The notes below the pieces were generated by a model, which was not told where the DNA came from, ran no database searches, and saw nothing but the letters and a program-made list of their open reading frames with translations. From Acholeplasmatales bacterium (GTDB taxonomy: Bacteria > Bacillota_I > Bacilli_A > Acholeplasmatales > Anaeroplasmataceae): DNA of 51,068 nucleotides. This document shows, piece by piece, positions 8,369-43,585 of this stretch (positions are counted from its first letter, which is position 1; each line of letters starts with the position of its first letter). The stretch lies in assembly GCA_016288855.1 (NCBI GenBank), contig JAEELJ010000010.1, positions 1-51,068 on the forward strand, read 5' to 3'. Made by a program: the position numbers and the translations under genes.

Positions 8369-8563
8369 AAAAAAACGTCCCTTTCAATTGAAAGAGACGC
8401 ATAAATACGCGCGGTGCCACTCTAATTGCTTTATTATAAATAAAGCCACTTTAAATTATTCATCTCAATAGATTCATTCAGAAAACCTAACTACAGGGCT
8501 TCCACCATCCCCTGTTCTCTATAAGTATTAGTAAACTTACTACTTCTATATCACAGATGATAT
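8369..8563 (-). promoter_or_regulatory. T-box riboswitch leader of the arginine operon
   Basis: On the minus strand the canonical T-box core AGAGTGGCACCGCG lies at about 8410-8423, followed by the antiterminator partner GCGTCTCT and by an intrinsic terminator (stem CGTCCCTTTC/GAAAGAGACG at 8376-8399, T-run 8369-8375). Stem I is closed by ATAGA (8549..8545) pairing with TCTAT (8472..8468) and has a typical apical segment (AGAGAACAGGGGATGG, then GGAAGCCC). The T-box bulge TGGC should pair with a GCCA tRNA end, so the expected tRNA has G at position 73. The specifier triplet lies in TGAATGAATC at about 8471-8480; I cannot assign it to arginine with confidence. A small hairpin ATATCA/TGATAT (8548-8563) overlaps the 5' side of stem I. 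Confidence 0.9.
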
Positions 8564-30480: not shown

Positions 30481-31284
30481 TTAATTTCTTTTACCGAATA
30501 TTTGTAATAATAAAACGATAATTCTTAATAATTGTAAATAAATATATGCTAAAGTGATTAATAATCCTAATGCAACACTCCATTCAGATTCTTTTCTACA
30601 ACCACTTTCAACTACTGCTTGTGCTTCATTGAAGCTATAGATTAACGAAAAACAAGCATATACAAGATATAATGTTTCAATTAATAATATTAACCAAATA
30701 ATATTTGTTGAATATGTTGATAATAACCCTGAGAATAGAATGAATAGAATTGTAAATAATCCTAATGCAACTGCAGTAATTAATACTGCGGCTAAGAATC
30801 TTCTTAAGAAAGATCCTACTCTTAGAACACCTGTTACAAATAATAATAACATAACAGTGAAGATTACTAATGTTCCAAATACAGCAAGTGCACCAATATA
30901 TTGGTTAGGGTATACTGCTTCTACAATTCCTGTGATAAATCCTAAAACGAATCCTTCAGAAATTGAATATATAAAAATACAAACTTTAGCTGCTTTATCA
31001 CTTAATCTACCTACTAATGCAGATATAAAAGCTATTATTACTGATACAATAGCTAATACACTTGAAGTTGTAAGCCACTTCATTGCAATCTCAGTATCTT
31101 CTGGATTTTCTGTAATAGCCTTATTAATTGATAGAATCATGAATGTTGCAACTACAATCGCAACAAGCATTGTTAAAGCTAATGATATAAATGTTTTAAT
31201 TGATATTCCTGTATAAGTTGCTTTTACGTCATCGTAACACTTAGAGCCAGTTTCAATTTTACTAAAAATTGGAGTCGGTTTCAT
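30481..31284 (-). CDS. Bax inhibitor-1 / YccA family membrane protein
   Basis: 267 residues with seven hydrophobic helices from about residue 28 to the C-terminus, preceded by a short cytosolic N-terminus (KPTPIFSKIE). The GFVLGFITGIVEAVYP segment near 110 and the sixth-helix region with the acidic residue (LLIETLYLVYACFSLIYSF) are typical of the family, which includes pH-dependent calcium leak proteins. The role in bacteria is poorly defined. AAGGAGG precedes the ATG, and the gene is a single unit with a promoter directly upstream. Confidence 0.88.
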   Translation of the reverse strand: MKPTPIFSKIETGSKCYDDVKATYTGISIKTFISLALTMLVAIVVATFMILSINKAITENPEDTEIAMKWLTTSSVLAIVSVIIAFISALVGRLSDKAAKVCIFIYSISEGFVLGFITGIVEAVYPNQYIGALAVFGTLVIFTVMLLLFVTGVLRVGSFLRRFLAAVLITAVALGLFTILFILFSGLLSTYSTNIIWLILLIETLYLVYACFSLIYSFNEAQAVVESGCRKESEWSVALGLLITLAYIYLQLLRIIVLLLQIFGKRN

Positions 31285-31375: not shown

Positions 31376-34300
31376 TTATACGCCAAAAGCGAACAATCCT
31401 TCAGCTTCAGGTTCGGATTCTTCCTTCAAATCTCCAAATGCACCTAATAATTTGAACTCTTCTACTAATGATGAAGAAAGCTTAGTTCTCTTTTCTACAT
31501 CTTGAATAGAATCAAATGGTTCTTCATTTCTCTTATTTACAATATCTAAAGCCACGGTTTCACCAAGCTTATCTACTGCAACAAATGGGATTCTTAATTT
31601 TCCATCCTCAATTGTGAAATTTAATGCATCTGACTTATTGATATCAACAGGTAGGAATTCATAGCCTCTTAGCTTCATTTCTAAGACAATTTGTAATGAA
31701 GTTATTAAATCTTCTTCCTTAGCTACCTTCTTAGGAATTTGAGTTAATTCTCTTATCTTACCTCTAATAGCTTCAACACCTTGCATGTAGATAAATACAT
31801 CATGGGCCTTAGCACGCTTAGATAACCAAGCTGAATAGAATAGAGGTGGATAATATAATTTGAACCATGAGAATCTTAAGGCATCTAATACGTATGCAAT
31901 GGCATGAGCCTTAGGGAACATATATTCAATCTTATCGCAGCTCCAAATATACCATTCTGGAACCTTCTTTTCTCTCATGTATGCTTGGAATTCCTGCCAT
32001 TTATCAGGAGATTTAACCTTCTTATTTTTACGAACGAATTCCATAATATTGAATGCTTTACCAGGCTCAAGACCCATTCTGATTAAGTCAATCATAATAT
32101 CGTCTCGACATCCAATAGTATCTGCAAATTCAATCTTACCAAATTCTGTTCTACCATTAACTAATTCCTGGCTGTTATTAGCCCAAACGTTTGTACCATG
32201 AGAAAGACCTGAAATTTTTACAACTTCAGCAAATGACTTTGGTAAGGTTTCAACAAGCATTCCTCTTACGAATTGAGTACCAAATTCTGGTAGACCAAAT
32301 GATGCTACCTTAGATCCTAATTGCTCTTCTGTTAAGCCAATTGATTCTGTACTACCGAATAATGCGTATTCTCTTTTATCATCAATAGGAATATCTCTTG
32401 CATCAGAGAATGGGAATTCATCCTGATGAGCATGTACATATTCCATAATATAGTGGAAAATAGTTGGATTATCGTGTCCTAGAATATCGAACTTTAATAA
32501 ATTATCCTCAAATGAGTGATAATCATAATGTGTTGTTCTAAACGCATTATCCTTATTATCTGCTGGATATTGAACAGGTGTTACATCGTAAATATCTACA
32601 TAATTAGGTACAACAACAATACCACCTGGATGCTGTCCGGTTGAACGTTTAACACCAATTATATATTGAGATAATCTTGTGATTTCACAGTCACGTAAAT
32701 TTTGACCTGTTCTTTCACAATAGCCCTTAACATAACCAAATGCATTCTTTTCTGCAACAGTACCAACAGTACCACCACGGAATGCATATTCATATCCAAA
32801 TACATCTCTAATGTATGCATGAGCTGTTGCTTGATATTCACCTGAGAAGTTTAAATCAATATCTGGAACCTTTTCACCATTAAATCCTAAGAATGTTTCA
32901 AATGGTATATCATGTCCATCCTTAGATAGCTTATTACCACATACAGGACATACCTGATCTGGTAAGTCGAATCCTGATGAAACACTTCTTAAGGTTGTTT
33001 GGAATGGCTTTTCGATATCTAATAGACCATATTTATCAATTTCATCATCACTCATTCTTAATGTATGGAAATGACACTTTTTACATACATAGTGTGGGGC
33101 AAGTGGGTTAACCTCTGTAATATTCATTAGTGTCGCAACAATTGATGAACCAACAGAACCTCTTGAACCTACTAAATATCCATCTTCATTTGATTTTTTA
33201 ACTAAAAGATGGCAAACATAATAAACAGATGCATTACCGAAAGAAATAATAGATTTTAATTCTCTTTCAACTCTTGCTTTAATAATTGGATGAGGATTAT
33301 CACCATACATCTTTTGTAATGTATCATAAACAATTCTTGTCATTTCATCAGCAATAGATGGAATGTGTAGCATTGAATCCTTAAACTGATCATCACGAGG
33401 TGAAAACATTTCTTTTGAGAAAGGCTTAATTGTTTCAATTTGATCAGCAACTAAATTAGTATTAGTTACAACAATTTCGTATGCTAAATCATCACCTAAG
33501 AACTTAAACTCATCTAGCATTTCTTCTGTTGTTCTTAAGAATTGATCTGGTACCTGCTTAACTTCTTTTCTTGCAAGAGGATGTACACCACCACCAATTT
33601 GTGGGGCAGCAATTAAAATATCTCTATATTTTTTATCCTTTGGTCTAAGGTAGTGACAATCTGATGTTGCAACAACAATCTTGCCCATTTCCTTACCCCA
33701 TTTGATAATATTCTTAATAACTAATTCAATATCTTCCTTTCCATTCGGAAGCTGACTAAAATATTGAGCATATGACATAGGAGGCTGTACTTCAATATAA
33801 TCACAAATCTCCATTGCCTTCTTACATTCTTCTTCGCTTCTATTTAATGCAAATTCAAAAACTTCGCCACGATTATCACCGCTACCTACTAATATTCCAT
33901 CACGGAATTCATCAAGTACTGATTTTAATAATCTAGCATCACCATATAAATGCTTAGTCATTGCATCTGATAAAAGCTTATACATATTCTTAAATCCAGC
34001 TTGAGTTTTGGCAAGAATATTTAATGAATATGGGAATACTAATTCATAATGTAATTCTGGTTTTATTAATGAATTAATATCTTTATAATTATAAACTCCA
34101 GCCTGATATAGCTGTTGTAGCATTTGTACAAAGGATAATGCTAATACTCTTGTATCATCATTTGCTCTATGGTGCTTTTCTTCTTTAACCTTATATGTTT
34201 TTGCTAAAACCTCAAGATTAAAACGCTTAGGTCTATTCTCTTGATATCCTGCAAGAACTCTAAATAGGTTAAGAGAATCAATTGTGCCTAAAAGAGGGAA

Positions 34301-35872
34301 ATCTATATTATATTTTTTAGATTTAGCATAAATCATGCCAACATCGAATTTTGCATTATGGGCAACAAAAACACAGCCCTTACAAAATTCCATAAATTCC
34401 TTTAATATAGTTTCTTCGTTTTCTGCATCCCTAACCATATCATCAGTAATTGATGTTAATTCAGTTATAGATTCAGGAATATGTCTTCCTGGATTAATGA
34501 ATTTTTCAAACTTTTCAATTACTCCACCTTGGTATACCTTATATGCAGCAATTTCAATTAAAGAATCAAATGTTTGAGAAAGTCCTGTTGTTTCAATATC
34601 ATAAACAATATATGTTGCTGATTTTAAATCTATATTTCTTGATTCCTCATCTAAATCATCAAATGTAATGAAATATTCTTGATCATTAATATAATTTAAT
34701 TCAACACCATAAAGAGGCTTAAAATCGCATTCCTTTGGTAATGAATGTAATACATCAGGAATAGAATATACACCAGAGTGGTCAGTAATAGCTAAAGACT
34801 TCCATCCCCACTTTATTGCAGTTTTAACATATGTTGATGCGTCAACAACTGAATCAAGTGTAGACATTTTAGAATGTGCATGTAATTCAACACGCTTTTC
34901 AACCGCATTATCCTGGGCTATTTCTTCCTTATGTACACCAACCTGTACAATTTCTTGAGCCATAATTAATACCTGGTGCTCGTAGCTATCATCCTCAATC
35001 TTACCTGTGATTTGGAAAATAGTACCATTTTCAATACCAGAATATAGTTTTATTTCCTCTTCTCCTCTTAACCACTTCTTAACTAATATAGAATCAGTCT
35101 CATCAGTTACCGCAAGCATAACCATCTTATTCTTGCTCTTAGGGAATTCCTTAATTTCCTTTTGGAAAACATAACCCTCAATTAAAACTACCTGTTCTCC
35201 TGTTTCATTAAGCATTCTTTGAATTTCATCATAATTACGAGGAAGGTCACATATTTGAGTCTTAACCTCAGGCTTATATTTATAATAGCTCTTCTTAGCA
35301 TTTCTAGAATCCTCATTGAATTTTTGAACCTGTAATGCTTCCATTCTTTGAGCTTCTATTTTTTCATTCATTTTATTATCTAGGTTTTGAATTTGTTGGG
35401 CAACAGATTTACTTTCATCCTCTTTAATTCTAACATCAATTAAAAAACCATAATTTTCAAATTCTTTAACAATTGGATCACATAAATCATCTAATCCCTT
35501 TGCATCAAATGCAACAAGGAATGTAACCTTAGAATCCTCTAGGATAACATCACCATCATTAATACTTAAAGCTTTAAAGCGTGGAGATGTTTCTTCAAGC
35601 TTTAATAGAATAGCGCTTAGGTATTCTTTTAGCTCTTCTTCAGTTAATGATTCATCCTTATAACTTATGACAAGGCTTAAAGAAACCTTCAAATCACTGA
35701 AGGCTTCTTTTATCTTTTTTGTTAAATTATTATAATTCTTAAGGTTTAATGCCTTATCTAGAACAAATGTAATATCAAGCTTTTCAGATGCCTTATGTAA
35801 AACTGCATCCTCAACCATAATATCATTTTCTTTTAGATATTCCTCGTTTTTTAAAATATCTATAATTTTCAT
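31376..35872 (-). CDS. polC: DNA polymerase III PolC-type alpha subunit
   Basis: The main replicative polymerase of low-GC gram-positive bacteria, about 1498 residues. Domains in order: N-terminal region, OB fold (residues 225-320), first PHP half with ELHAHSKMSTLD near 330, an inserted DEDDh proofreading exonuclease (IVYDIETTGLSQ near 425, HNAKFDVGM near 510, HHRANDDTR near 575), second PHP half, and the palm with PDIDLNFSGE near 1040. A zinc-binding CxxC set (CKKCHFHT and CPVCGNK) lies at about 965-1010. The start at ATG 35872 excludes a short upstream TTG extension. The downstream DUF1189 gene order on this strand puts polC second. Confidence 0.97.
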   Translation of the reverse strand: MKIIDILKNEEYLKENDIMVEDAVLHKASEKLDITFVLDKALNLKNYNNLTKKIKEAFSDLKVSLSLVISYKDESLTEEELKEYLSAILLKLEETSPRFKALSINDGDVILEDSKVTFLVAFDAKGLDDLCDPIVKEFENYGFLIDVRIKEDESKSVAQQIQNLDNKMNEKIEAQRMEALQVQKFNEDSRNAKKSYYKYKPEVKTQICDLPRNYDEIQRMLNETGEQVVLIEGYVFQKEIKEFPKSKNKMVMLAVTDETDSILVKKWLRGEEEIKLYSGIENGTIFQITGKIEDDSYEHQVLIMAQEIVQVGVHKEEIAQDNAVEKRVELHAHSKMSTLDSVVDASTYVKTAIKWGWKSLAITDHSGVYSIPDVLHSLPKECDFKPLYGVELNYINDQEYFITFDDLDEESRNIDLKSATYIVYDIETTGLSQTFDSLIEIAAYKVYQGGVIEKFEKFINPGRHIPESITELTSITDDMVRDAENEETILKEFMEFCKGCVFVAHNAKFDVGMIYAKSKKYNIDFPLLGTIDSLNLFRVLAGYQENRPKRFNLEVLAKTYKVKEEKHHRANDDTRVLALSFVQMLQQLYQAGVYNYKDINSLIKPELHYELVFPYSLNILAKTQAGFKNMYKLLSDAMTKHLYGDARLLKSVLDEFRDGILVGSGDNRGEVFEFALNRSEEECKKAMEICDYIEVQPPMSYAQYFSQLPNGKEDIELVIKNIIKWGKEMGKIVVATSDCHYLRPKDKKYRDILIAAPQIGGGVHPLARKEVKQVPDQFLRTTEEMLDEFKFLGDDLAYEIVVTNTNLVADQIETIKPFSKEMFSPRDDQFKDSMLHIPSIADEMTRIVYDTLQKMYGDNPHPIIKARVERELKSIISFGNASVYYVCHLLVKKSNEDGYLVGSRGSVGSSIVATLMNITEVNPLAPHYVCKKCHFHTLRMSDDEIDKYGLLDIEKPFQTTLRSVSSGFDLPDQVCPVCGNKLSKDGHDIPFETFLGFNGEKVPDIDLNFSGEYQATAHAYIRDVFGYEYAFRGGTVGTVAEKNAFGYVKGYCERTGQNLRDCEITRLSQYIIGVKRSTGQHPGGIVVVPNYVDIYDVTPVQYPADNKDNAFRTTHYDYHSFEDNLLKFDILGHDNPTIFHYIMEYVHAHQDEFPFSDARDIPIDDKREYALFGSTESIGLTEEQLGSKVASFGLPEFGTQFVRGMLVETLPKSFAEVVKISGLSHGTNVWANNSQELVNGRTEFGKIEFADTIGCRDDIMIDLIRMGLEPGKAFNIMEFVRKNKKVKSPDKWQEFQAYMREKKVPEWYIWSCDKIEYMFPKAHAIAYVLDALRFSWFKLYYPPLFYSAWLSKRAKAHDVFIYMQGVEAIRGKIRELTQIPKKVAKEEDLITSLQIVLEMKLRGYEFLPVDINKSDALNFTIEDGKLRIPFVAVDKLGETVALDIVNKRNEEPFDSIQDVEKRTKLSSSLVEEFKLLGAFGDLKEESEPEAEGLFAFGV

Positions 35873-35894
35873 ATAACTCAACTCTTTTTAATAA

Positions 35895-36734
35895 TTATTT
35901 TTTTACTCTTAGAATATGTCTAAATGTAATAATAGAATAAATAAATGGTAATAATAATGCTAAATATTGTAAATATGAGAAATTAAACATATACATTAGC
36001 ATCATAATAAATAGATATGGAAGTGAATCGTATAATACAAGCTTTATTCTTACTTTCATTTCTATTGTTGGATTACTAGCTGTAGAGAATAATAATAAGA
36101 AAAATATTAATATTCCATAAAATACTAAAGTCTTTCCAATCTCAGATAGGAAATGATATACCTGATAACGAATATTAGCATTTTCAAATGCGTCAGAAAG
36201 GATTTGGTTAAATACAATAGTCGCTTCTCTTTGACCTGATAATACATCATATAAATCAAAATTTTCTGTAATAGAATTAGCATATTTATATGTTACAGGC
36301 TTATTAGAAAAAATAGTATTATAATAAACATCAACTTCTGTTTCTTTAAAATCCAGGATTACAGAATCATTTGGAATTGAATGCTGATTTTCTCCCATAA
36401 AGAAATAAATATATACTCCAGCATCCTTATAAGAGAAATCCTTATAGCCCTTTAATGTAGTTTGAAATGAAGATGTAGATGAATCGAAAGTAATTTGATC
36501 CTCATTTAATTCAATTACATTTGCAAATTTACAAATTTGCATAAGCTCAGTAACCTCAGATGCTGTTTCATTGCCTAGGTATGTTGTATTAAATGTTAAT
36601 ATTGCAAATACTAAACAATATAATGCAAAAAAAGCTATCGCATGTAAGATGGGTATTATAATTTTATCCTTATTGAATATTCCAACCTTGCTCGGACGAG
36701 TAAGTGAATAAGTTAATCTTAATAATTCCTTCAA
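35895..36734 (-). CDS. DUF1189 family membrane protein
   Basis: 279 residues. One transmembrane helix near 28-48 and four or five more in the last 100 residues flank an extracytoplasmic domain of about 130 residues. The N-terminal RLTYSLTRPSKVGIFNKDK is characteristic of DUF1189 proteins. The likely start is TTG 36734 with AGGAGA upstream; no ATG fits. It lies 22 bases before polC and may share its transcript. A TATAAT at 36765-36770 could be the promoter. Function unknown. Confidence 0.78.
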   Translation of the reverse strand: MKELLRLTYSLTRPSKVGIFNKDKIIIPILHAIAFFALYCLVFAILTFNTTYLGNETASEVTELMQICKFANVIELNEDQITFDSSTSSFQTTLKGYKDFSYKDAGVYIYFFMGENQHSIPNDSVILDFKETEVDVYYNTIFSNKPVTYKYANSITENFDLYDVLSGQREATIVFNQILSDAFENANIRYQVYHFLSEIGKTLVFYGILIFFLLLFSTASNPTIEMKVRIKLVLYDSLPYLFIMMLMYMFNFSYLQYLALLLPFIYSIITFRHILRVKK

Positions 36735-36977: not shown

Positions 36978-36996
36978 ATTGATTATACGTGATTAT

Positions 36997-37932
36997 ATGA
37001 CATATTTTACTAAGGATAAACCTTATAATACATTAAATGAATATAATAAGATTAGATATAATTCTAAGGTTTCAAAAATTGCATTAAATGGTGGCTTCAC
37101 ATGTCCTAATAAGGATGGTAAGGTTGGAATTGGTGGCTGTACATACTGTTCTAGACTTGGAAGTGGAGATTTTGCAGGGGATATTAAATTATCATTTCAT
37201 GATCAATATTATCAAATAAAACAGATAATAGATAAAAAATGGAAAAACACAAAATATATGCCATACCTTCAAGCAAATTCTAACACATATGATAAAGTAG
37301 AAAATCTAGAAAAAATTTATAATGAAATATTAGAAATAGACCCAAATAATACAGTTGGCCTAGCTATTGCTACAAGAGCGGATTGTATTGATAAGGATAT
37401 TGTAAATTTATTAAAAAAGATTAATGAAAAAAAGGATGTAATCATTGAACTTGGATTACAAACCTCTAATGAAAAAACAGCAAATATAATCAATAGATGC
37501 ATGACAAATAAATGCTTTATTGATGCGGTTAATATGCTACATGAGGCTAATATATTTATTGTAGTACATATCATCAATGGACTTCCCTATGAGAATGAGG
37601 AGGATATGCTAAATACAATTCATTTCTTAAATAAATTACCAATAAATTCTATTAAATTTCATTCTCTTTTAATTCTTAAAAATACTAAGATGTATGAACA
37701 ATATATTAAAAATCCATTCCATATTTTAACTGAGGATGAATATATAGATATTGTTTGTAAGCAAATATGTATCTTAAGAGATGATATAATAATCGAAAGA
37801 TTACAAGCTGATTCTTCTTTCCTAGATTTAGTAGAGCCATTATGGACAAGACGTAAGCTTGCAGTAATGGATAAAATTGATATGTATTTAAGAAATAATA
37901 ATTTATATCAGGGTATTTATTATAAAAAATAA
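36997..37932 (+). CDS. TIGR01212-family radical SAM protein
   Basis: 311 residues. The N-terminal YNKIRYNSKVSKIALNGGFT and the cysteine cluster CPNKDG...GGCTYC mark the YtqA/YhcC (TIGR01212) family, whose 4Fe-4S cluster cleaves S-adenosylmethionine. The spacing between the first Cys and the CxxC pair is longer than in classical CX3CX2C enzymes, as usual for this family. Start at ATG 36997 behind GTGAT; upstream TTG is possible. The substrate is not known, although members have been linked to tRNA modification. Ends at a bidirectional terminator. Confidence 0.87.
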   Translation: MTYFTKDKPYNTLNEYNKIRYNSKVSKIALNGGFTCPNKDGKVGIGGCTYCSRLGSGDFAGDIKLSFHDQYYQIKQIIDKKWKNTKYMPYLQANSNTYDKVENLEKIYNEILEIDPNNTVGLAIATRADCIDKDIVNLLKKINEKKDVIIELGLQTSNEKTANIINRCMTNKCFIDAVNMLHEANIFIVVHIINGLPYENEEDMLNTIHFLNKLPINSIKFHSLLILKNTKMYEQYIKNPFHILTEDEYIDIVCKQICILRDDIIIERLQADSSFLDLVEPLWTRRKLAVMDKIDMYLRNNNLYQGIYYKK

Positions 37933-37956: not shown

Positions 37957-38379
37957 TTAATTATTTTTAACAACGAATGCTGATACACCTATTACAACCG
38001 CAATAAATATTATTGAAACTATAATAGAAAAAATAATACCTACAATTGATAATGCTTGTCCTATTGTTGGAACATTAGTTGCATTTTTACTTTTTTTAGA
38101 AATTGATGAGAAAACAATACCAGGTATTCCAAAGAATAATCCTATAAAGAAACACCAACAGAATGCTATACTTGCAATTCCTAAGCCTAATCCTACATAA
38201 GAGAATACTCTATAGTATTTAGGTTCAGCTTCATTAGTATCTTCTTTAATTTCAGCAAATCCTTCTTCATCATTAGCCTCTTCTTTTTTAATTCTTTTTG
38301 CCTCACTAAGGTTTGCACCACAAACCTTACAAAATGAATCATTTTCTCCAACTTCGTTTCCACAATTAATACAAATCAT
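37957..38379 (-). CDS. Zinc-ribbon membrane protein (DUF4190-like)
   Basis: 140 residues. An N-terminal zinc ribbon (CINCG and CKVCG, residues 3-19) is followed by an acidic linker and two hydrophobic regions: VGLGLGIASIAFCWCFFIGL near 63-82 and the C-terminal IVGIIFSIIVSIIFIAVVIG. This arrangement occurs in small housekeeping membrane proteins often labelled DUF4190 or zinc-ribbon domain-containing. The function is unknown. AAGGGGGG precedes the start. Confidence 0.75.
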   Translation of the reverse strand: MICINCGNEVGENDSFCKVCGANLSEAKRIKKEEANDEEGFAEIKEDTNEAEPKYYRVFSYVGLGLGIASIAFCWCFFIGLFFGIPGIVFSSISKKSKNATNVPTIGQALSIVGIIFSIIVSIIFIAVVIGVSAFVVKNN

Positions 38380-38439: not shown

Positions 38440-40449
38440 CTAAGATAACCATCCTTCATTAATAATAGATGATTTTTTAGAGAATTTTTCTTCATATATC
38501 TCTTCTGCTAAGAATGGCATAAGAGGATATATTGCAATTAAATATAGTTTTAATTGAGATAAATTAAACATTTCTTTAAATACATATATATCAGTAAAGC
38601 TTTTTAAATAATTAATATAAGATGTAATATCTCTTTTTAATAAATAGTTCTTACATTTATCTACAAATTCCCTAAAGTGATAATCCATTCTTACCGAATC
38701 TAAATCCTCTACCTTTAATAATCTTTGTTCTAATCTTTTTACATATAAATCAATAGATGATAAATCTGATTGATTATAAATAAATTCATCTTCTATATTA
38801 TTTGATAAGAAATACCATCTAATTGAATCAGAATAATACCTTTTTAATATACCCATAACATCTAATGTATTATTATTCCATTTAGCCAATCTAGTATATG
38901 TATAGTCTAGAGTCTCAGGAATAATAAATAATTTATTAAATAAATTTGTAATAGTATAATTTGTTTCACGCTTTAAAATATTATGAATAATTATAGGCAT
39001 TAATAACCCTGATACTATTCTTGTTTTTTCAACCATGAATGTAGAAATAGGGACCCAAGATTTCATCTCTTCAATAAAAGATTTAGTGAATAATGAATCA
39101 CTTGATGAATATTCATCATAATTAATTGATAAAATAGGAGCCATTCCATCAACAAATAAAGAATTAATTGAACCCTTTAATGGCGTACCTGAAATATTAG
39201 TTTTATCCGATAATACAGGTCTAAATTGGCTTGAAAAATTATATGGTAGGAAGCCTCTTAATGAGTTTAGTGTACCACTATCCTTATCATATAAGAATGG
39301 GAATAGAGGACCAAATCCATCTGATGATGATAAATTTATAAGTGTATTTTCATAAGTAATTTCTATATCTGCAATACCAGCATCACTAAATACATTTATA
39401 ATTTCTTCATGGGCTTTTTTTAGGGTCATACCATCTAAGAAATCTGAATTAATTAATAATCCATTTGAAATAATATCAATATATTCTAATTCCATATTTT
39501 CTTGTAATAATCTATCATCTTCTATTGCGCCAGGGAAAACCAAATAAATTGCTTGATTATATAACGTAGATATAAAAATAGGTATTTGTCTTCCTGTTAG
39601 TGGATTTAGGGCAGTAAGGCCAGAATCTGCAAAAGGATTTGATGTCATTTCTAATATTTCCTTTACAGCTTCTCTTTCTTCATCTCTAACATATGTTTCA
39701 ATATCAATTAGATTAGGATTTAAGACAACGAATGATAAGCCTCCTAAGTATTCTGGCTTATCTAATATAACATTAAGCTTATTTTTATTTGATAAATCAA
39801 AAGACATTTTTAAATTCCTTTTAATTCCAAATCTTTTTAATAAATCATTTTTATATTCTTCTTTTATATCAAGTAATGTTATATCCTTATATACATCTTC
39901 TATAACACTAGAAATATCTAATGAAAATGATTTAACCTTAACCTTAGAATATTCTATATTATCTTGTAATGTAAAATCATCATATAATTTTTTAGTTTTA
40001 TTATCCTCATAAAGAATTCTATTTTTATAAACGATATATCCCTTTTCATATAAATCGATAAATGCTTCTTGTAATGTAATTAAATATTCGTCATGACGCA
40101 TATTAATTAATTTAGCATCATTTATACCAACACCTAATTCCTTTAATTCCTCAATATAGATATTAGGGATTTCATCATCTAATAAATTATCATTCTTCTT
40201 AGCCTCAGAGAAAGATGAAAAAGAAAGAGTATCTAAGCCAATAGGATATAAGACATTCAAATCATTTAATCTATCGAATCTCGCAAAAACATCAGATGCA
40301 ATAACACCTCTTAAGTTTCCGTTTTGAAATCCAAATTGATTTGCCTTAGGCATAGATGTATAAATATATGATTTACTTTTAAGCATATCGTTTTCGATAA
40401 TAAAGCCTCTTGCGATACACCACTTCTTATACCAACTACCTCTTCCCAT
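38440..40449 (-). CDS. Degenerate leucyl-tRNA synthetase paralog lacking HIGH and KMSKS
   Basis: 669 residues that follow LeuRS from end to end: Rossmann N-terminus (ASDVFARFDRLNDLNVLYP near 51-69), connective/editing insertion (LTGRQIPIFIS, then LLINSDFLDGM), second Rossmann half (YYSDSIRWYF) and the anticodon-binding helices. The ATP-binding HIGH motif is replaced by FQNGN (about 41-45) and KMSKS by KWNNN (about 523-527). The editing-site HDERD and the RQRYWG-type motif are also gone. The protein is shorter than LeuRS (about 800 or more). It cannot be an ordinary synthetase, and a true leuS is expected elsewhere. Start at ATG 40449 or 40452 behind GGGGAGGTGAG. It lies just after acpP but past an intrinsic terminator. 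Confidence 0.8.
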   Translation of the reverse strand: MGRGSWYKKWCIARGFIIENDMLKSKSYIYTSMPKANQFGFQNGNLRGVIASDVFARFDRLNDLNVLYPIGLDTLSFSSFSEAKKNDNLLDDEIPNIYIEELKELGVGINDAKLINMRHDEYLITLQEAFIDLYEKGYIVYKNRILYEDNKTKKLYDDFTLQDNIEYSKVKVKSFSLDISSVIEDVYKDITLLDIKEEYKNDLLKRFGIKRNLKMSFDLSNKNKLNVILDKPEYLGGLSFVVLNPNLIDIETYVRDEEREAVKEILEMTSNPFADSGLTALNPLTGRQIPIFISTLYNQAIYLVFPGAIEDDRLLQENMELEYIDIISNGLLINSDFLDGMTLKKAHEEIINVFSDAGIADIEITYENTLINLSSSDGFGPLFPFLYDKDSGTLNSLRGFLPYNFSSQFRPVLSDKTNISGTPLKGSINSLFVDGMAPILSINYDEYSSSDSLFTKSFIEEMKSWVPISTFMVEKTRIVSGLLMPIIIHNILKRETNYTITNLFNKLFIIPETLDYTYTRLAKWNNNTLDVMGILKRYYSDSIRWYFLSNNIEDEFIYNQSDLSSIDLYVKRLEQRLLKVEDLDSVRMDYHFREFVDKCKNYLLKRDITSYINYLKSFTDIYVFKEMFNLSQLKLYLIAIYPLMPFLAEEIYEEKFSKKSSIINEGWLS

Positions 40450-40471
40450 CATCTCACCTCCCCTGTGATAG

Positions 40472-40516: not shown

Positions 40517-40756
40517 TTACTTGTTTTTAACAAGACCAGTTACGTAATCTACGATATCCTTAACTGTTTGAATTTTTGTAGCGTCATCCTCATCAATTGA
40601 AATACCGAACTTATCTTCTAAGTCCATTACAATCTGTACTGCATCAATTGAGTCAGCACCTAAATCTTCCTTTAACTTTGCTTCAGGTCTAACCTTTTCA
40701 GGAGCACAGTTGATTTCTTCAACAATGATATTCTTTACTTCTTCAAAAATATCCAT
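40517..40756 (-). CDS. acpP: Acyl carrier protein
   Basis: 79-residue acidic four-helix carrier for growing fatty acids. The phosphopantetheine serine is in GADSIDAVQIVMDLED near residue 37. The motif reads DSID rather than the common DSLD. It has a strong AGGAGG site and its own promoter overlapping the end of thrR, so it can be expressed independently of the threonine genes. No other fatty-acid synthesis gene is in the window, so it may be the main carrier or a specialised one. Confidence 0.93.
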   Translation of the reverse strand: MDIFEEVKNIIVEEINCAPEKVRPEAKLKEDLGADSIDAVQIVMDLEDKFGISIDEDDATKIQTVKDIVDYVTGLVKNK

Positions 40757-40784: not shown

Positions 40785-40813
40785 ATTATACCAAAAATAT
40801 TATTCTACTGCAA
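40785..40813 (-). promoter_or_regulatory. acpP promoter
   Basis: Minus strand TTGCAG (40813-40808), a 17-base spacer and TATAAT (40790-40785). The -35 lies within the last codons of thrR. Confidence 0.7.
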
Positions 40814-41228
40814 GTAGAGTAACATCAATTACGTTTGGCAATTTCTTTAATTCAAGATTTAATGCTTGAACAGACATCTCAAGCTCTAATACCGCAATTG
40901 CTAATGTAACATATGCAATATTATGAACTGGCATTTCTTGTGTTATTGTTAAAATGTTACAATGTCTTTCATTTATTTCATTTAATACGTTTGATAATGT
41001 ACCAGGCTCATCATTAAGCTTTAAAGATAAGATTACTCTTCTCCCTAAATCCTTTGATGGTTTATTAACATAATCCTTATATTTATAGAAAGTTGATCTA
41101 GAAAGACCTATTTCCTTACAAGCATCACTAATATTTACTCCCTTAGATACCTTATCTTTTATTTGTATTACCTTTTCAAAATAATCAGGAAGAACCTTTT
41201 TATTGATTACATAATATTCATCATCCAT
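40800..41228 (-). CDS. thrR: ACT-domain regulator of the UPF0735 (PheB/ThrR) family
   Basis: 142 residues. The N-terminal half holds a helix-turn-helix (VNISDACKEIGLSRSTFYKYKD near 31-52) and the C-terminal half an ACT domain (ILSLKLNDEPGTLSNVLNEI near 66-85) for amino-acid sensing. The B. subtilis member has been described as a repressor of threonine genes (ThrR). Here it follows thrB with a one-base overlap, which supports the same role. The ligand is probably threonine; this is inferred. The name is by family and context. Confidence 0.8.
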   Translation of the reverse strand: MDDEYYVINKKVLPDYFEKVIQIKDKVSKGVNISDACKEIGLSRSTFYKYKDYVNKPSKDLGRRVILSLKLNDEPGTLSNVLNEINERHCNILTITQEMPVHNIAYVTLAIAVLELEMSVQALNLELKKLPNVIDVTLLAVE

Positions 41229-42100
41229 TAGATTTCCTCCAATTTGACACCAGAAGAAACCTTTAATAGCTTAACATCATAATTAAATTTCTTTAATTTA
41301 TTTTTAATTAAAGTAGCTTTCTTTTGGTCTTTTTTTAGAATAATAAGCATAGTAGATCCAGAACCAGATATAGCGAATGCAACCTTAGCCTTATCACAAA
41401 TTTCTTTAATTTCATTATATGTTGGAATAAGCTTTGATCTATATGGCTCATGCATTGAATCAATGAATAATCTTCTAATCATATTAACATCGCCTAATTC
41501 AAATGCACGTGGGATATTAACTATTCTTGAAGTATTATTTACAATTTCTTTATAAGATAAAGATTCAGGTAAAACCTTTCTTGCTTCATGTGTAGATAAA
41601 TGGAAAGGTGGAGTTACTGTTATAAAATCTAGATCCTTTGAAACCTTATAAATATTTGGATAATAATTATCTTCATATTTATATGAAGCAACAAGAGAAC
41701 CATATATAGCAGGTGCAACATTATCAGGATGTCCTTCTAATTCTACTGTTATATCAAATAATTGATTTTTAGTTAAAGGCTTACCCATAAAATAATTTGC
41801 TGCAAAAACACCAGCTACAATTAAGCTTGATGAAGAGCCAAGTCCTCTTGAAACAGGAATTTCCCCCTTAAAGCCAATTCTTACAGGAACAAGCTTCATA
41901 CCTATTTTTTCAAATGTGTATTTATATGAATCATAAACTAAATTATTATCAATAGTTAAGAATTCATCCTCAAATCCATAAAATGAAAATTCATCTGATT
42001 TTTCAAATGTAAATTCATTAAATAATGATAATGCTAGTCCTAAAACATCAAATCCTACACATAAATTTGCAGATGTTGCAGGAACTTTTATTCGAAGCAT
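41228..42100 (-). CDS. thrB: Homoserine kinase
   Basis: GHMP-family kinase that phosphorylates homoserine, 290 residues. The N-terminal VPATSANLCVGFDVLG is the family signature. The ATP loop PVSRGLGSSSSLIVAG is near residue 83 and the C-terminal AFAISGSGSTMLI near 245. It overlaps thrC by 13 bases at its start and thrR by one at its end, so the three genes are tightly coupled. No homoserine dehydrogenase or aspartokinase is nearby, so homoserine must be supplied by genes elsewhere. Confidence 0.95.
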   Translation of the reverse strand: MLRIKVPATSANLCVGFDVLGLALSLFNEFTFEKSDEFSFYGFEDEFLTIDNNLVYDSYKYTFEKIGMKLVPVRIGFKGEIPVSRGLGSSSSLIVAGVFAANYFMGKPLTKNQLFDITVELEGHPDNVAPAIYGSLVASYKYEDNYYPNIYKVSKDLDFITVTPPFHLSTHEARKVLPESLSYKEIVNNTSRIVNIPRAFELGDVNMIRRLFIDSMHEPYRSKLIPTYNEIKEICDKAKVAFAISGSGSTMLIILKKDQKKATLIKNKLKKFNYDVKLLKVSSGVKLEEI

Positions 42101-43506
42101 TTTACTACTTCCTTTACATAGCTAGAAGCATCTTCTAATTTAACAACAGTTCTTTCTGGAGCTGGATAATTTAAGACAGAAGGAATTTCAAGATTGAACT
42201 TCTTAGATAATACTTCAATTGATTTAAATGCATCTTCTTCTTTAATGCTAAACGCTTCAAGAACAGATTGTGGGAACTTGTATGGAGATGCAGTTGAAAC
42301 AACAACTGTAATAGCCTTATCATTTGTTTCAGTAGAATATTCCTTAAATGCGTTATATGCAACTGCAGTATGTGGATCAATTACATAATTAAATTCATTA
42401 TAAACATCCTTGATTACTGATAAAGTCTTTGCTTCATCAGTTGAATAAGCATAGAAATATGGATATGGATTATTAAAATCATAGTATCCATTTGTATTTA
42501 AGCTTGTCATTAATGAAGAAACCTTATTAGTGTCTTCATTATTTGCATAATATAAGAATCTTTCTAGGTTAGATGAGATTAAGATATCCATTGATGGTGA
42601 ATTTGTCTTAAAGAATGGACGATTCTTATTATATTTACCATTGCAGAAGAAATCTGTTAATACATTATTCTTATTAGATGCACAAATTAAATTCTTAATA
42701 GGTAATCCTAACATCTTTGCATAGAATCCCGCAAAAATATTACCGAAGTTACCAGTAGGTACATCAAAGTTAATTTCTTCCCCATCTTTTATAATTCCAT
42801 TTCTTAATAAATAAATATAAGAATAGAAATAATATACAGTTTGTGGTATTAATCTAGCAATATTGATTGAATTTGCGCTAGATAATGATAAATCCTTATT
42901 TTCACTAAAGAACTTCTTTACGAAGCTTTGGCAATCATCGAAGTTTCCTTGAATTGCTAATACTTTAGCATTTTCTCCCTTAAATGAGCACATTTGTGCT
43001 TCCTGTACTGGTGAAACACCTCCATCAGGATATAGTACAACAATTGAAATACCAGGAATTGATTTAAAACCATTTAATGCAGCTCCACCTGTATCCCCTG
43101 ATGTTGCTGTTAAAATAGTAATATTCTTCTTATATCCAAGCTTTTCTTTAGATAGCTTCATTAATCTTGGTAATACAACTAAAGCTAAATCCTTAAAAGC
43201 AAGTGTAGGACCATGGAATAATTCTAAGAAATATGCATTACCGCATCCCTTAAGCTCAACTACATTTTCTGTATCAAATGTTGAATAAGCTTGATCAATT
43301 TCTTTCTTGATTTCATCGAATGAAAATTCAGGGAAGAATGCATTTAAAATCTTTGATGCCATAGTCTTATAATCATCATTTAAATAATCCTTATAATTAA
43401 TCTTAGGAAGATTATCAATTACATATAAACCTCCATCTGATGCTAATCCATTTAAAATAGCCTCAGGTGATGAAACTAATTTACTTCCTCTTGTTGAATG
43501 AAACAT
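42088..43506 (-). CDS. thrC: Threonine synthase
   Basis: PLP enzyme that converts phosphohomoserine to threonine, 472 residues. This is the long form with N-terminal FHSTRGSKLVSSPEAIL. The PLP lysine is in GPTLAFKDLAL near residue 105 and the cofactor loop in TATSGDTGGAAL near 135; FDVPTGNFGNIFAG follows near 240. Start at ATG 43506 with GGAGG 8 bases upstream. First gene of thrC-thrB-thrR. No T-box precedes it; the promoter contains a palindrome that could be the ThrR site. Confidence 0.95.
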   Translation of the reverse strand: MFHSTRGSKLVSSPEAILNGLASDGGLYVIDNLPKINYKDYLNDDYKTMASKILNAFFPEFSFDEIKKEIDQAYSTFDTENVVELKGCGNAYFLELFHGPTLAFKDLALVVLPRLMKLSKEKLGYKKNITILTATSGDTGGAALNGFKSIPGISIVVLYPDGGVSPVQEAQMCSFKGENAKVLAIQGNFDDCQSFVKKFFSENKDLSLSSANSINIARLIPQTVYYFYSYIYLLRNGIIKDGEEINFDVPTGNFGNIFAGFYAKMLGLPIKNLICASNKNNVLTDFFCNGKYNKNRPFFKTNSPSMDILISSNLERFLYYANNEDTNKVSSLMTSLNTNGYYDFNNPYPYFYAYSTDEAKTLSVIKDVYNEFNYVIDPHTAVAYNAFKEYSTETNDKAITVVVSTASPYKFPQSVLEAFSIKEEDAFKSIEVLSKKFNLEIPSVLNYPAPERTVVKLEDASSYVKEVVKCFE

Positions 43507-43533
43507 ATTAATACCTCCAAAATAAACAACACC

Positions 43534-43585
43534 ATTATATATTGTTTTGTACAAATATACAAGTGTTTTTTAAGCAAAAACACTT
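43534..43585 (-). promoter_or_regulatory. thrC promoter with two candidate operators
   Basis: Minus strand TTGTAT (43562-43557), a 17-base spacer and TATAAT (43539-43534). The perfect palindrome TTTGTACAAA (43546-43555) lies in the spacer, where a bound repressor would block RNA polymerase. A second perfect inverted repeat, AAGTGTTTT/AAAACACTT (43561-43585), overlaps the -35 side. Confidence 0.6.

Follow-up and report, generated by a model that had tools for sequence, protein, structure and literature searches.

The fold of aminoacyl-tRNA synthetases (aaRS) has been reused without tRNA charging in HisZ, a class II protein whose partner is HisG, and in other aaRS-like regulatory subunits. The aa:CP ligases, which are relatives of the aaRS (SerRS-, AlaRS-, or GlyRS-like) and load carrier proteins, are catalytic, class II-like enzymes in which the ATP site is kept, and aaRS paralogs in general usually retain this site. 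Duplicates of leucyl-tRNA synthetase (LeuRS) with partial activity have been described in archaea: LeuRS-I in the Sulfolobaceae and LeuRS2 in the Halobacteria (review PMC9437257). As summarized in that review, LeuRS-I makes leucyl-adenylate and binds tRNA-Leu without performing any aminoacylation (Weitzel et al., 2020, via PMC9437257), and LeuRS2 has kept some charging activity and an affinity for tRNA-Leu (Fang et al., 2014, via PMC9437257).

The protein studied here, which we call pseudo-LeuRS, is encoded in a window of 51,068 nucleotides (the whole stretch of DNA that was analysed) belonging to a genome of the Anaeroplasmataceae. The features of the locus are given in Table 1. Like HisZ and the other regulatory subunits, pseudo-LeuRS has an aaRS fold which would be used without tRNA charging, and its gene adjoins that of a carrier protein, the kind of protein loaded by the aa:CP ligases. 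As far as the archaeal enzymes are summarized in the review, LeuRS-I resembles it in being a second, family-conserved LeuRS present beside a working one, with a disrupted CP1 and no aminoacylation, but LeuRS-I adenylates and binds tRNA-Leu, whereas pseudo-LeuRS has neither HIGH nor KMSKS. On the same basis, LeuRS2 is likewise a divergent second LeuRS beside a working one, but differs in the charging activity and tRNA-Leu affinity it retains. In open-access full text, we found no description of a bacterial LeuRS paralog devoid of any signature motif, nor of a native aaRS that was displaced and has persisted as a pseudoenzyme in the Anaeroplasma group, nor any account of the aaRS of Anaeroplasma.

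Table 1. Positions in the window of the pseudo-LeuRS gene, its motifs, and the neighboring genes.
Feature	Position	Strand	Description or evidence
pseudo-LeuRS gene	38440..40449	minus	669 aa + stop; profile, sequence, and fold searches
Shine-Dalgarno GGGGAGGTGA of pseudo-LeuRS	40454..40463	minus	read from sequence
FQNGN (residues 41-45)	40315..40329	minus	at HIGH position; alignment of orthologs
CP1 (editing-domain) region, residues ~171-360	39370..39939	minus	largest share of the columns showing at least 90% conservation
D312	39514..39516	minus	sole editing-site Asp retained; invariant in 48/48 orthologs
INSDFLDG (residues 333-340)	39430..39453	minus	LeuRS junction motif, strongly conserved; alignment
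RLAKW (residues 520-524), then NNN	38878..38892	minus	at KMSKS position; alignment of orthologs
acpP (acyl carrier protein)	40517..40756	minus	directly upstream of pseudo-LeuRS; Pfam PF00550; synteny
Zinc-ribbon membrane protein (MpPF26/DUF4190-like)	37957..38379	minus	between pseudo-LeuRS and the radical SAM gene
Radical SAM protein	36979..37932	plus	conserved syntenic marker
c3, conserved 279-aa membrane protein	35895..36734	minus	syntenic marker
polC	31376..35881	minus	syntenic marker; basis of the reference tree
Bax-inhibitor-like protein (BaxI)	30481..31284	minus	syntenic marker

The gene, its fold, and its motifs

The first-pass annotation had presented the gene as an intact frame of 669 codons with a strong ribosome site, encoding a full-length LeuRS look-alike. 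The open reading frame was confirmed, as was the Shine-Dalgarno sequence located 5' of the ATG start codon at 40449 (a further in-frame ATG is present at 40452). No riboswitch or T-box was found with Rfam near the pseudo-LeuRS operon. Elsewhere in the window, a T-box leader (100.5 bits; 8390-8563, minus strand) lies 5' of the run of open reading frames 8347-4699, which we take, reading by eye, to be argG-argH-argC.

Pseudo-LeuRS matched the TIGR00396 profile (E = 7.8e-30; 103.7 bits), the curated cut-off of which (548.4 bits) was not reached, and the LeuRS chains of the PDB (E = 2e-13). Judging from these sequence matches, its homology with LeuRS is far beyond chance. The structure predicted by AlphaFold2 from an input alignment of 33 orthologs (pLDDT 89.8, pTM 0.87) is that of a class Ia LeuRS in which the Rossmann halves, CP1, and the helical domain are present, and the top 49 matches obtained with this model against the PDB using Foldseek were all LeuRS (probability 1.00, TMq 0.67-0.74). 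The resemblance to LeuRS was therefore borne out by both the profile and the fold, but the term "full-length" is not quite appropriate: the alignment stops ahead of the VNGKLR region, and the C-terminal tRNA-binding domain is missing. With canonical bacterial LeuRS (TIGR00396), and especially with the native LeuRS of the Acholeplasmatales, pseudo-LeuRS has in common the fold, the gene slot, and the CP1 insertion, along with the INSxFLNG motif, the D345-type Asp, and the D..R of the GADxLR segment; it differs from them in the loss of all the catalytic motifs and of the C-terminal domain, and in its low profile score. A canonical leuS was identified on contig C71 of the same genome (804 aa; 1067 bits with TIGR00396).

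The loss of both ATP-binding signatures, which had been noticed in the window's copy (FQNGN for HIGH, KWNNN for KMSKS), proved to be family-wide. HIGH and KMSKS are missing from all the 48 orthologs compared, where they are typically replaced by GFQNGN and IKRSNNN, respectively, while RQRYWG is replaced by SSxDxFG and the EH..H segment (GGxEHA...H) is gone. Among the 241 columns that are near-invariant in working LeuRS, 24 are occupied by the same residue in 90% or more of these orthologs. The loss of the editing motif announced in the first-pass annotation held only in part: RQRYWG has indeed disappeared, as have the His and the first Asp of HDERD, together with T247, T248, and T252 of the editing pocket, but the last Asp of HDERD (D312) is kept in all the 48 orthologs. 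We take D312 to be the equivalent of D345, in what we assume to be the E. coli numbering (T247, T248, T252, D345). At the position equivalent to T252, Tyr is found in 30 of the 48 orthologs, and Leu, Glu, or Phe also occur, while a new motif, PEY(L)GG, stands at the TTRPDT position. A conservation of 90% or more is reached in 43 columns, which are distributed between the N-terminal Rossmann half (15), CP1 (19), the second Rossmann half (7), and the helical domain (2 of its 124 columns); the Rossmann and CP1 half thus accounts for 34 of them.

Putative roles of pseudo-LeuRS

Given the loss of the ATP site, the editing Thr residues, and the C-terminal domain, any catalysis by pseudo-LeuRS is very unlikely. 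The protein presumably cannot charge tRNA, and since the motifs serving for adenylation are missing, the formation of leucyl-adenylate is also unlikely. A regulatory role, as proposed in the first-pass annotation, may apply; as for toxin resistance, also proposed there, a synthetase without activity would not bring charging back. The pattern of residue conservation suggests instead a non-enzymatic binding function exerted via the Rossmann/CP1 half, and the ligand could quite possibly be a protein partner, a role we propose tentatively.

Two other kinds of ligand were considered. The invariance of D312, which is aligned with the Asp contacting the amino group during editing, and the presence of the new PEY(L)GG motif would both suit a sensor of amino acids or nucleotides, in which a ligand would occupy the old pocket and a change in shape would convey the signal. 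This function is unlikely, however, as Tyr, Leu, Glu, or Phe fills the side-chain pocket position, D312 may do no more than cap a helix, and no conserved effector domain is present. The second candidate ligand is tRNA-Leu itself, as the tRNA-binding role suggested in the first-pass annotation would imply: pseudo-LeuRS would then be a tRNA-dependent regulator or carrier, as suspected in the case of the archaeal LeuRS-I and LeuRS2, which bind tRNA-Leu (PMC9437257), and in the predicted structure both CP1 and the helical domain of the anticodon type retain their fold. This is decidedly unlikely in view of the loss of the C-terminal domain and RQRYWG, the acidity of the protein (mean pI 4.9, with a CP1 net charge of about -17), and the fact that conservation is lowest in the helical domain.

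Gene slot and origin

The local gene order is acpP, pseudo-LeuRS, radical SAM gene (on the opposite strand), c3, polC, and the Bax-inhibitor-like gene; the zinc-ribbon gene inserted after pseudo-LeuRS is confined to the window and its closest relative. On the other side of acpP, the minus-strand genes at 40800-43554, which on reading by eye are presumably those of an ACT-domain regulator, a homoserine kinase, and a threonine synthase, are found directly 5' of acpP in the majority of the genomes of this genus and not in the other genera. In what follows, f1 denotes the Anaeroplasmataceae; f2, f3, and f4 are sister families in the Acholeplasmatales, and f21 and f22 belong to another order of the same class. 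In f4 and f2, a catalytic leuS occupies the same slot, in the order acpP, leuS, radical SAM gene, c3, polC, BaxI (loci L154, L156, and L165), with a few extra genes at two further loci of the sister families (L151 and L162). Family f2 takes in genomes of 0.3-0.9 Mb, which are probably those of phytoplasmas.

The gene acpP is located directly 5' of pseudo-LeuRS at 33 of 37 loci, with gaps of mostly 40-65 nt, while the outer neighbors vary between genera. Taken by itself, this might mean that pseudo-LeuRS works with the acyl carrier protein encoded by its co-oriented neighbor; we regard this as quite improbable, since the adjacency is ancestral and common to the catalytic leuS, and since in G028 (L061) and G029 (L060) acpP is replaced by a gene which we take by eye to encode a HAD-type hydrolase. 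An obligatory coupling with acpP, which is broken in these two genomes, was rejected. The linkage to acpP is both ancestral and dispensable.

Copies devoid of the motifs were also found in f3: genome G143 carries a 703-aa copy without HIGH and KMSKS directly after acpP, and G144 a second one after acpP, 60% identical to the first. The f3 copy is less diverged than the Anaeroplasmataceae pseudo-LeuRS (438 bits with TIGR00396, on a scale where canonical LeuRS score about 1050 bits and pseudo-LeuRS 103.7 bits). Its best matches outside f3 are the native LeuRS of f2 and f4 (up to 529 bits), those with the Anaeroplasmataceae LeuRS amounting to 415 bits at most. In the LeuRS tree, the canonical LeuRS of f1 and f3 cluster with those of f21 and f22 (support 100/99), and two deletions are common to all of these, whereas the native LeuRS and the f3 copy have neither. 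In the PolC tree, f1 and f3 join f2 and f4, far from f21 and f22. Because the LeuRS tree and the two indels conflict with the PolC tree, these sequence comparisons strongly support a foreign origin of the working LeuRS of the Anaeroplasmataceae. In the LeuRS tree, the f3 copy falls tentatively with f2 and f4 (support 88/61, not starred), the window-type sequences being too divergent, with very long branches; the exact attachment of pseudo-LeuRS is therefore based on the synteny, the indels, and the f3 copy, and not on the support values of the tree. Pseudo-LeuRS very probably corresponds to the native leuS, which a xenologous LeuRS would have displaced and which has been kept on as a pseudoenzyme.

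As both proteins are LeuRS and second copies often result from duplication, pseudo-LeuRS might alternatively be a duplicate of the current canonical LeuRS which moved beside acpP and decayed. This is highly improbable: the slot is that of the native leuS in the sister families, the f3 copy does not show the two deletions of the canonical gene and matches the f2 and f4 LeuRS best, and the grouping of the f3 copy with the f1 and f3 canonical LeuRS into a single clade was narrowly rejected by the AU test (p = 0.037).

As regards the number of times the native leuS was displaced, in family f3 (loci L157, L158, L159, and L206) the working LeuRS nests inside those of the Anaeroplasmataceae, whereas PolC places f3 as their sister, and the loss of KMSKS took place through deletion in f3 and through substitution in the Anaeroplasmataceae. 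There may therefore have been two displacements, or a single one followed by an overwrite in f3. The two f3 working LeuRS copies are nearly identical, while their pseudo-LeuRS are 60% identical.

Distribution, selection, and significance

Full-length orthologs were found in 51 of the 55 Anaeroplasmataceae genomes and in six of the seven genera, showing 23-75% identity with the window's copy. As a scan of genome contigs showed, the family includes the cultured Anaeroplasma bactoclasticum ATCC 27112, with an ortholog in NZ_QXEV01000002.1, as well as many MAGs from rumen and gut. In three of the negative genomes (G002, G015, and G032), a contig break truncates or removes polC, so that the gene may nevertheless be present. 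The fourth one, G054, which is 97% complete and is the only genome of the seventh genus, shows no copy; its contig ends near the expected place, and when a cut copy was sought beside its radical SAM gene, the flanking open reading frame was found not to be LeuRS-like. This genome also carries part of a LeuRS of a third type (L161, 8823-9984): the contig end leaves its N-terminal half, which contains a CDRCG segment and is about 52% identical to the canonical LeuRS of the Anaeroplasmataceae, and a further LeuRS replacement is suggested.

No pseudo-LeuRS reading frame was detected outside the Anaeroplasmataceae in a 395-genome sample of the class, where the next hits were canonical LeuRS of about 800 aa, and no relatives were found in viral contigs. 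In two near-complete f22 genomes, G365 and G463, nothing matching LeuRS was found with the profile used on this sample; they perhaps have a very different LeuRS type.

The dN/dS values of pseudo-LeuRS range from 0.08 to 0.33 (20 closest pairs), its dN being mostly two to four times that of the canonical LeuRS in the same genomes, and no stop or frameshift variants were found in the relatives surveyed. Pseudo-LeuRS is under purifying selection, in agreement with the first-pass view that it is not a decaying pseudogene. A role in RNA splicing, for which the CP1 of yeast mitochondrial LeuRS would provide an analogy, since it serves in group I intron splicing and CP1 is kept in pseudo-LeuRS, is extremely improbable, as no group I intron was found in the 55 Anaeroplasmataceae genomes (Infernal, stricter filters; three control genomes positive). 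That the gene is a neutral, slowly decaying pseudogene, as an evolution about three times faster than that of the canonical LeuRS might suggest, is virtually impossible because the frame is full-length in about 50 species with identities down to 23% and because of the dN/dS values.

Returning to the displacement of the native gene, we consider the following account probable as a whole. The gene would be the vertically inherited leuS of the Acholeplasmatales, which still lies between acpP and the radical SAM and polC genes. In the ancestry of the Anaeroplasmataceae, leucine charging would have passed to a LeuRS that came from another order. Instead of being deleted, the old leuS would have become a pseudoenzyme: the ATP and leucine site was lost (HIGH, KMSKS, and GGxEHA...H), the editing pocket filled (mostly by Tyr at the T252 equivalent), and the C-terminal tRNA-binding domain dropped, while the LeuRS fold and the intact frame were kept under purifying selection in the ancestral slot. 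The resulting protein would act by binding, most likely a protein, via its Rossmann and CP1 half.

What is striking here is a whole class I synthetase deprived of all its signature motifs, standing in the native slot and intact across a bacterial family after its replacement. A LeuRS-like name for 38440-40449 would be misleading as to the function, the true leuS being located elsewhere. With pseudo-LeuRS, an enzyme minus its enzymology, it becomes possible to test whether bacterial LeuRS has a non-catalytic function. It is conceivable, if rather doubtful, that a further, non-catalytic job was already performed by the native LeuRS, one which the incoming LeuRS could not do, and that the native gene kept that job alone. 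If this is true, nature would have set a hidden moonlighting function of bacterial LeuRS apart from the enzymology in the Anaeroplasmataceae protein, and in f3 the same experiment may have been run a second time, independently.
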